Source: a virus. Taken from it: 21,807 nucleotides of DNA. The translations under genes were made by a program, and so were the position numbers. Below the pieces are notes generated by a model. That model was not told the origin of the DNA, did not search any database, and saw only the letters and a list, made by a program, of their open reading frames with translations. Positions 20,312 to 21,807 of this stretch are shown here, in pieces. Location of the stretch: the IMG/VR virus record IMGVR_UViG_3300030109_006406, positions 1-21,807 of that record; one strand, written 5' to 3'. Within the stretch, counting starts at the first letter, position 1; each line of letters begins with the position of its first letter.

Positions 20312-20743
20312 CTATTTCCACTCCTTATTTTCCTCATAGTTTAATTCTTCATCATATTTAATCTCGTTAAAATGTGTCTTAATAATGTTCCAATGTTCTT
20401 TACTTGGGTATGAAAAATATTTTGTAAAGCGAAACCAATGCTCGACTGTTGTGTAATCAATCCCGGTTACTTCACTTAATTTTTTTGCATTTGTTTGTGA
20501 TCGAAGATATTTCACAAATGGTTCTTGTTCCGGGAGCCGTGGTCTATGGGTCATTTCATCTTTTAATAATTCTTTTACTCTATCAGGTCTATCTTTTAAA
20601 ATTTCTTTAAAGACTTGAATAGATAAAGTTTCTTGAACACGATGGTTGGATGATCGTGTTTTCTTTCCCATGAGTAAACGAGCTGCATATCGTTCTGCAT
20701 TCTCCGATGAGTCAATTGCTGTAGGCGTGCGCCAAAATTTCAT
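20312..20743 (-). CDS. WRTP-motif protein with HTH-like C-terminal domain
   Basis: 143 residues from ATG 20743, which overlaps the preceding stop (ATGA). The start MKFWRTPTAIDSSENAERYA carries the same W-x-T-P-x-A pattern as the repeats of the gene upstream, as if it were the last repeat split off into its own ORF. The C-terminal half reads FVKYLRSQTNAKKLSEVTGI, then a DYTTVEHWFR helix and YPSKEHWNIIK. This matches a helix-turn-helix layout (KKLSEVTGI-xxTTVEHWFR) that I recall from phage genomes with DNA methyltransferase loci. It may recognise DNA for the methyltransferase or regulate the locus; both are inference. Confidence 0.6.
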   Translation of the reverse strand: MKFWRTPTAIDSSENAERYAARLLMGKKTRSSNHRVQETLSIQVFKEILKDRPDRVKELLKDEMTHRPRLPEQEPFVKYLRSQTNAKKLSEVTGIDYTTVEHWFRFTKYFSYPSKEHWNIIKTHFNEIKYDEELNYEENKEWK

Positions 20744-20835
20744 TTCTCTGAGATCTTATCTCCAATGGCATAAATCATGACAGCAATAAAGATTAAAACA
20801 ATTAAAATTAATCCTAATAAAATTTCACTTACCAT
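20740..20835 (-). CDS. 31-aa single-span membrane peptide
   Basis: A short ORF from ATG 20835 preceded by GGAGA and a run of A. It overlaps the stop of the W-x-T-P gene at its start by 11 bases and the start of the next gene at its end (ATGA). The product begins MVSEILLGLILIVLIFIAVM: almost entirely one hydrophobic helix, followed by a short charged tail (GDKISEK). It fits a small membrane protein. The ribosome site and the overlap at both ends support it; the function is unknown. Confidence 0.55.
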   Translation of the reverse strand: MVSEILLGLILIVLIFIAVMIYAIGDKISEK

Positions 20836-21790
20836 TTTTTTTCTCCAGATCTAATGCAACGGCAATGTCTAAAGGTTTGTGCATATGAACACCCTTAGCT
20901 GCCCACTTATCTTTTCTTTTTTTCCAACTATCTTTTACTGTCCCATCTTCGTTTATCTCGCCTCGCTTTCCGTCATTCGCTGTTGGTGTTGGCCACATCT
21001 TTTCTTCTTCTTCCAAAACTTTTGTTGCAAGTGAATGACCTTTCGTTCCTTTTCGAACTGATGGAGGAATTTTTGTTCCATCTTTCCAGTCTCTACTCAG
21101 AGGTGTTGGCCAATTCATCTTCATAGGTTTGGAGGATGCTGAGTCCGATGTAGTAGGGGATGGAAGGGACGAGACTATTTCCGAGTGATTTAAGTCTGTC
21201 CACCCTTTTGGGTACCCCATTAGCCACTCTACCCACGTTGGGTTCAATGTTCCACCACCCGTTCCACGGACGTCTGGATGATTGCCCAACATTTTCTGCA
21301 TCTTCCCATTTGGACTCCCCGCGTGATGTTCGCTCGCTTGAGGTGTTGGCCATAGTCTTTTCTCTTTCACTTGATCCTGGAGTCTGATTTGCAGCTGATG
21401 ACCACTTGGTCTTTTCAAGTGGCCCTCGTCCAATGCTTTCTTTATTCCCGGAAGGTTCGAGCCCCCCGCCAAGTTGTCTGGTGTCCTCCACATTTTCATG
21501 TCTGTTACTTTTTTTCCATACTTCACTTGTTCCGCTAGATTGCCTGGATTGACCGTGTTCCTCCCTATACTTTTTCTGAATTCCGCTCTCTTCTTCATTC
21601 CTTCTTCGGACCTGTTCGAAATAATTGTCTTGCTTGGAGTTAGCCACAATCCAGACTCTTTCTCTTTGGTGGTTCGCGCCGATGCTCGAAGCTGAAATAC
21701 TAAACGTCCTTGCGGAGTAACCTTCACTCTCCAGGTTCTTGAGTACGGTGTCGAGACCGAGTTTAATGTGTCCACTAACGTTTTCTCCAA
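20825..21790 (-). CDS. W-x-T-P repeat protein overlapping the DNA methyltransferase in another frame
   Basis: 321 residues if started at TTG 21790; the frame is open to the window edge, so the true start is unknown. Residues 19-34 read TWRVKVTPQGRLVFQL. W-x-T-P motifs occur at residues 49, 101, 147, 227 and 266, usually followed by Ser/Ala/Asn/Asp. Residues 183-200 read NPTWVEWLMGYPKGWTDL. I recognise all three signatures from proteins found at cytosine methyltransferase loci of phages. Over 21093-21790 the same DNA encodes methyltransferase motifs in the other frame; the last 268 bases lie beyond the methyltransferase stop and continue the repeats. The next gene's ribosome site lies in its last codons. 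It may be translated from an internal start or by frameshift; a seven-A run on this strand (21515-21509) is one slippage candidate. Role unknown. Confidence 0.6.
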   Translation of the reverse strand: MEKTLVDTLNSVSTPYSRTWRVKVTPQGRLVFQLRASARTTKEKESGLWLTPSKTIISNRSEEGMKKRAEFRKSIGRNTVNPGNLAEQVKYGKKVTDMKMWRTPDNLAGGSNLPGIKKALDEGHLKRPSGHQLQIRLQDQVKEKRLWPTPQASEHHAGSPNGKMQKMLGNHPDVRGTGGGTLNPTWVEWLMGYPKGWTDLNHSEIVSSLPSPTTSDSASSKPMKMNWPTPLSRDWKDGTKIPPSVRKGTKGHSLATKVLEEEEKMWPTPTANDGKRGEINEDGTVKDSWKKRKDKWAAKGVHMHKPLDIAVALDLEKKNGK

Positions 21791-21807
21791 TAACCCAAGA
21801 CGGGCGC
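21093..21807 (-). CDS. dcm: C5-cytosine DNA methyltransferase, C-terminal part (N-terminus outside window)
   Basis: The open frame enters at the right edge and gives 237 residues to a TAG at 21093. Motif VI ENV (residues 8-10, in VIGENVSGHI), motif VIII QRERVWIVAN (47-56) and motif X GNSLVP (209-214, in RVDRLKSLGNSLVPSIP) are clear, and the EPNVGRVANGVP block before motif X is typical of phage Dcm-type enzymes. Motifs I and IV with the catalytic PCQ lie outside the window. The stretch between motifs VIII and X, where the target-recognition domain should be, is Ser/Arg/Glu/Asn-rich and of low complexity; in the +1 frame the same bases encode the W-x-T-P protein. The enzyme probably methylates phage DNA for protection from restriction. 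GC content is visibly higher than in the rest of the window. Confidence 0.9.
   Translation of the reverse strand, partial: RPSWVIGENVSGHIKLGLDTVLKNLESEGYSARTFSISASSIGANHQRERVWIVANSKQDNYFEQVRRRNEEESGIQKKYREEHGQSRQSSGTSEVWKKSNRHENVEDTRQLGGGLEPSGNKESIGRGPLEKTKWSSAANQTPGSSEREKTMANTSSERTSRGESKWEDAENVGQSSRRPWNGWWNIEPNVGRVANGVPKRVDRLKSLGNSLVPSIPYYIGLSILQTYEDELANTSE

Follow-up and report, generated by a model that had tools for sequence, protein, structure and literature searches.

To our knowledge, the nested arrangement of a C5-cytosine DNA methyltransferase in two reading frames is known from a single studied enzyme, M.EcoHK31I, and cellular genomes offer few, and disputed, cases of long dual-coding overlap on one strand. 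The small-subunit gene of M.EcoHK31I overlaps the large-subunit gene in another frame, and M.EaeI is built alike. Multispecific C5-methyltransferases of Bacillus phages, the subject of Trautner 1996 and Gunthert 1986, reportedly carry several small target-recognising domains in a row, and the target-recognising domains of such phage enzymes are about 40 residues long. M.EcoHK31I (YGGCCR) and M.AquI (CYCGRG) are two-polypeptide C5-methyltransferases; the former has motifs I–VIII and X in the large subunit and motif IX in the small one, with its predicted recognition domain placed in the large subunit, and the latter is split into two chains after motif VIII (PMC3404938). Furthermore, naturally monomeric C5-methyltransferases are also active when split after motif VIII (PMC3404938), M.EcoHK31I has served as a naturally split enzyme (PMC3439449), and the LambdaBa01 prophage carries an orphan methyltransferase whose predicted target, YGGCCR, is that of M.EaeI (PMC4722110).

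The window analyzed here is the whole virus record IMGVR_UViG_3300030109_006406 (21,807 bases of marine phage DNA), at the right end of which two frames, referred to as alpha and beta, are open together on the minus strand. Judged from its sequence, the locus probably, and with good confidence, encodes a two-subunit alpha/beta C5-cytosine DNA methyltransferase of the M.EcoHK31I kind, produced from two overlapping genes. As in that enzyme, compared by description, motifs I–VIII and X are found in one chain and motif IX in the second, the assignment of motif IX relying on a reciprocal profile scan. In M.AquI, by contrast, the second chain contains both motif IX and motif X, whereas here alpha retains motif X and overlapping frames give rise to the two chains. 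Unlike in M.EcoHK31I, beta can hold several WxTP modules and outrun the alpha stop codon, and recognition is assigned here, on the evidence below, to beta, against a prediction for M.EcoHK31I that puts it in the large subunit (PMC3404938). What appears to be new is the breadth of the arrangement, the modular beta, the evidence for recognition in beta, and the G/AG tracts within the overlap of some relatives. The features of the window are as follows.

21093..21806, minus strand: alpha, last 237 codons of a C5-cytosine DNA methyltransferase (open frame; PF00145, E 8e-10; phrog_363, E 9e-27)
21768..21788, minus strand: alpha motif VI (GENVSGH), from the sequence; ENV invariant in the alpha alignment
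21639..21668, minus strand: alpha motif VIII (QRERVWIVAN), from sequence coordinates
21240..21638, minus strand: alpha read-through segment from motif VIII to IX/X, whose bases also encode beta WxTP modules; open, with little or no amino-acid constraint
21135..21188, minus strand: alpha motif X (SLGNSLVPSIPYYIGLSI); LGN invariant in the alpha alignment, alpha constraint 0.10
21093-21095, minus strand: alpha stop codon
20825..21805, minus strand: beta, +1-frame protein, 326 codons within the window (phrog_1008, E 1e-25; homologues open in both frames; constraint)
21680..21805, minus strand: part within the window of the conserved beta N-terminal domain (LGLLEKTL...TWRVKVTPQGRLVFQLRAS), from sequence coordinates
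21491..21649, minus strand: beta WxTP module 1 (WLTP; cluster 4), by module clustering
21353..21490, minus strand: beta WxTP module 2 (WRTP; cluster 0), by module clustering
21251..21352, minus strand: beta WxTP module 3 (WPTP; cluster 6), by module clustering
21191..21250, minus strand: segment of beta resembling motif IX (TLNPTWVEWLMGYPKGWTDL), which alpha motif X follows directly on the DNA (reciprocal profile ranking; beta constraint 0.07)
20996..21112, minus strand: beta WxTP module 4 (cluster 5), spanning the alpha stop and mostly beyond it, by module clustering
20828..20995, minus strand: beta WxTP module 5 (cluster 9), in the single-coding tail past the alpha stop, by module clustering

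Both chains are cut by the contig end, so to say at their front: the N-terminus of alpha with motifs I–V, and the N-terminus and start of beta, lie outside the window. A TTG at 21790 is probably not the true start of beta, because the beta frame is still open at the contig end. The open-frame listing and the mapping of coordinates bear out an earlier note on this DNA, which had described the two open frames, motifs VI, VIII, and X in alpha (motif IX is absent there), the shared bases reading VWIVANS/SGLWLTPS and NVGRVANGVPKRVDRL/TWVEWLMGYPKGWTDL, and a second frame running about 270 bases past the methyltransferase stop (268 bases were found). The overlap lies where that note had it, but as a whole it is longer (0.44–1.26 kb in complete homologues); likewise, the coincidence of motifs is real, but the repeated VAN(T/S) strings in alpha are largely by-products of beta WxTP codons, because alpha constraint there is little or none. 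Alpha scores above the PF00145 cut-off and matches M.HhaI up to motif VIII, and the catalytic chain carries motifs I, IV, VI, VIII, and X of the C5-methyltransferases; motifs I, IV (PCQP), and VI (ENV) are invariant in the alpha alignment of homologues, in which I and IV, outside the window itself, were observed. PHROG matches were obtained from each frame separately, and both families are named 'DNA methyltransferase'; no Pfam model matched beta in the window or in the homologues L082 and L125, nor did any NCBIfam model bearing on function. As a side observation, the family phrog_1008 corresponds to the beta frame. The G+C content is 46% in 20825-21807 vs 33% over the window as a whole, a difference that dual coding or recent acquisition may account for.

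The double open frame is far above chance: under synonymous-codon shuffling in the window, beta stays open in 1.65% of the shuffles of alpha, and alpha stays open in 0 of 2000 shuffles of beta. Dual coding at the locus is close to certain, and the comparison of homologues provides what we take to be the decisive evidence for it. Viral contigs were searched with alpha and beta separately, and the two overlap in all 146 entries of the resulting table, which include the window twice and some duplicate contigs, with beta always at alpha + 1; 120 distinct sequences remained after duplicates and four loci with displaced C-termini were dropped. Bacterial genomes scanned with the beta alignment yielded 80 loci, again with the +1 overlap in every one (80/80), from about ten phyla and many metagenome-assembled genomes (Firmicutes, Proteobacteria, Bacteroidota, Verrucomicrobia, Calditrichota, Acidobacteria, Planctomycetes, Coriobacteriia, Neomarinimicrobiota, and others); a few of these loci have a broken alpha N-terminus. 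In complete homologues the overlap extends from before motif IV to about motif X and covers 438–1256 bases, with alpha of 225–477 residues and beta of 146–631 residues, as measured from a beta start chosen by rule, which may be off in single cases.

Motif IX, which is absent from the chain carrying the other motifs, very probably belongs to beta, which would thus be the motif-IX subunit of the enzyme. Among loci from 25 bacterial genomes that were chosen for holding a beta, with ordinary methyltransferases picked by profile search, those with an ordinary motif IX have no beta, whereas alpha-type loci have one in 8 of 8 cases. A profile of the beta segment LNPxWVEWLMGYP, run over 23 ordinary enzymes, put their motif IX at the top of the ranking in 13 and no lower than fourth in the others. 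The forward scan of beta with an ordinary motif IX profile was mostly negative, the best window falling at the expected place in 13 of 58, and the reciprocal scan alone was used as profile support. Furthermore, the order in the DNA is that of an ordinary gene, i.e., VIII (21639-21668), modules, IX (21191-21250), and X (21135-21188), with IX in the other frame, and the divergent betas of L142 and L143 read TPEEWERRMGYP or TPQEWERRMGFP, nearer to motif IX. These observations bear on the strongest alternative, which is nevertheless improbable, that beta is a real protein but no subunit of the enzyme, e.g., a regulator or an unrelated overprinted phage protein. Consistent with it, beta matches no solved fold or curated family: two AlphaFold2 runs (51 and 85 sequences) both gave a pTM of 0.27, i.e., no confident prediction, and Foldseek with the better beta model gave no match at E below 0.001, for which reasons no fold is claimed; in addition, the sequence match to motif IX is partial. 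Against it, beta accompanies alpha-type enzymes that lack motif IX and not complete ones, its motif-IX-like segment is placed where motif IX belongs in the DNA, divergent beta copies, which read LTMTPEEWERRMGYPIGWT, come closer to motif IX, and M.EcoHK31I shows the same division of motifs. The earlier note had also suggested overprinting of a companion protein; the companion in the second frame is strongly supported, but overprinting as the invention of a new protein on top of an existing one is not favored, since beta seems to hold the enzyme's own motif IX and the splitting of one enzyme between frames is therefore as likely.

Complete viral loci show, with few exceptions, the same opening of beta, namely a stop codon and an AAGGAG-type Shine-Dalgarno sequence followed by ATG, GTG, or TTG, typically TAAAGGAGTTAAATTATG, and in full-length homologues of the truncated window this conserved start sits within the alpha gene before motif IV. 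With a start codon of its own, preceded by a conserved Shine-Dalgarno sequence, beta does not need a frameshift for its production. The companion reading thus has in its favor a conserved internal ribosome-binding site and start, constraint in two frames, the same +1 overlap in phages and bacteria, and frames kept open where both are needed. The alternative offered in the earlier note, that programmed frameshifting reaches the second frame and gives alpha another C-terminus that swaps the recognition region, is very improbable and was rejected as the normal mode. What speaks for it is the displacement of motif IX or X to another frame in some relatives with G/AG tracts; beta, however, starts about 60 residues upstream of the window edge, and because this own start precedes motif IV, most of beta is not an extension of alpha; the window is without a G/AG tract, and the +1 overlap is fixed in all other loci.

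A length-switching version of the frameshift idea is possible in a few relatives that have such tracts and displaced C-termini. Seven of the 80 bacterial loci (L165, L166, L194, L200, L204, L205, and L214) have motif IX/X in another frame or beyond a stop codon, and in eight relatives a G run (6 to 12) or an AG run is found inside the overlap near the junction. The tract positions, in loci with motif IX or X displaced, are 3271 in L135, 1335 in L136, 3163 in L144, 503 in L131, 5544 in L165, 5546 in L166, 5561 in L200, and 5545 in L205. L135 and L136 are 99.9% identical over 1001 bases and are one G apart, which changes the C-terminus that follows each N-terminus, and long tracts are about 4.6 times denser in the gene than in flanking DNA (12 in 169 kb vs 17 in 1107 kb). 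The changes in tract length are possibly phase variation, or possibly assembly or sequencing errors in G runs.

To return to the two-subunit enzyme, beta is modular, and its WxTP modules are freely recombined: module families recur in varied order, on either side of motif IX, in phages and several bacterial phyla, and each module adds about 40 residues to the length of beta (r = 0.90). The order in the window is clusters 4, 0, and 6, then motif IX, then clusters 5 and 9. The 268-base tail is the post-IX part of this array (most of module 4, and module 5), which explains why the second frame keeps its repeats past the methyltransferase stop, as had been noticed earlier. With an average of about 40 residues, the modules resemble in size the domains of the multispecific Bacillus phage enzymes, and they are exchangeable, their DNA binding being putative; the multispecific enzymes are single chains in one frame, whereas here there are two chains in two frames. 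This parallel suggests that the WxTP modules are target-recognising domains, which we consider somewhat better than an even prospect. Separately, a 143-residue open reading frame just downstream of beta (20312-20743, minus strand) begins with a WRTP module; it shares 64% identity with the C-terminus of beta in L049, where the fusion to beta is in frame, and has no Pfam match.

Selection on each frame is evident from the substitution pattern. Taken over all pairs at 70-97% identity, mismatches at the first, second, and third positions of alpha codons come to 0.19, 0.12, and 0.44 upstream of beta, to 0.22, 0.10, and 0.21 within the overlap, and to 0.24, 0.11, and 0.09 in the tails encoding beta alone. 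Because all-pairs data are not independent, the per-frame test was redone on 39 disjoint pairs with bootstrap, taking non-synonymous change in one frame at sites synonymous in the other relative to sites synonymous in both. The beta ratio is 0.81 (0.63–1.07) upstream of beta, 0.35 (0.26–0.52) from the beta start to motif VIII, 0.16 (0.10–0.29) in the variable segment between VIII and IX, 0.07 at motif IX, and 0.38 at motif X; the alpha ratio is 0.20 (0.15–0.29) from the beta start to VIII, 0.87 (0.62–1.55) in the variable segment, 0.14 at IX, and 0.10 at X. These ratios indicate that both frames are constrained across the catalytic half and the IX–X region, and that between VIII and IX selection acts clearly on beta alone while alpha drifts. 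Some alpha constraint in the variable segment may remain, because this segment offers few sites that are synonymous in both frames (14 changes) and the all-pairs version gives alpha about 0.48.

Across 60 loci, alpha-phase stops in the variable segment number 0 vs 369 expected from beta-synonymous shuffles, a count that follows in part from the definition of the region by the alpha open frame; third-phase stops there number 678 vs 621 expected, alpha-phase stops in beta-only tails 158 vs 185, and beta-phase stops in upstream alpha-only sequence 512 vs 509. Since the zero count is partly definitional, comparison within module families is the sharper test of openness: in five families, 0 of 15 module copies before the alpha stop contain an alpha-phase stop vs 24 of 24 copies beyond or spanning it, the spanning copies containing the stop of alpha by definition. 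Alpha is thus kept open in the variable segment though it drifts. The earlier note had proposed such a test of purifying selection, with stop codons or a neutral pattern in homologues as evidence against dual coding; frames stay open where both are needed, and within the overlap it is alpha between VIII and IX that drifts. That the +1 frame is a mere shadow, conserved through the conservation of alpha, is practically ruled out by the per-frame test: alpha codons alone do give some +1 openness (50 of 120 loci have at least one synonymous shuffle that stays open, and one locus has as many as 67%), but substitutions that alter beta are suppressed at alpha-synonymous sites within the overlap and not upstream, the variable segment is better conserved in beta than in alpha, and beta is preceded by a conserved ribosome-binding site of its own and runs on into a conserved tail that codes in one frame, in agreement with the earlier doubt about a shadow.

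In the two-subunit enzyme as proposed, alpha would carry the catalytic domain with motifs I–VIII and X, and beta would be translated in the +1 frame from its own ribosome-binding site inside the alpha gene and would supply the small domain, i.e., the WxTP modules for target recognition and motif IX; the two chains would join into one active enzyme, by which the phage may methylate its own DNA against host restriction. A wider reading, which we offer tentatively and at somewhat less than even weight, is that beta is a combinatorial recognition subunit in which each module, about 40 residues long, recognises a DNA target of its own, the modules being swapped among phages and bacteria under pressure to stay open in the alpha frame so that alpha reaches motif X; in some lineages, the length of a G/AG tract would re-pair the N- and C-termini of both proteins and turn the enzyme on or off. 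The neighboring genes serve phage replication (DNA polymerase A, UvrD-like and SNF2-like helicases, and a primase-like protein), and the scanned proteins of the window included no identified restriction enzyme. The likeliest role is that of an orphan methyltransferase shielding phage DNA from restriction; phage methyltransferases do protect against restriction (PMC4190342).

With an overlap of 0.4–1.3 kb in phages and about ten bacterial phyla and a per-frame selection test passed in homologues, the locus is usable as a reference case of dual coding, and the modular beta makes the target choice of these methyltransferases directly testable. Annotation often keeps alpha alone, so that protein databases lack what is proposed to be the specificity half of a common phage methyltransferase, and beta is without a Pfam entry. 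Named phages matching beta include those of Paenibacillus, Klebsiella, Escherichia, Salmonella, and Cronobacter, and in Paenibacillus phage Tadhana both nested genes are annotated as DNA methyltransferases. In an Enterobacter hormaechei plasmid (L257) and in Klebsiella phage vB_KpnS_MAG26fr (L258), alpha alone is annotated, and beta is encoded too.
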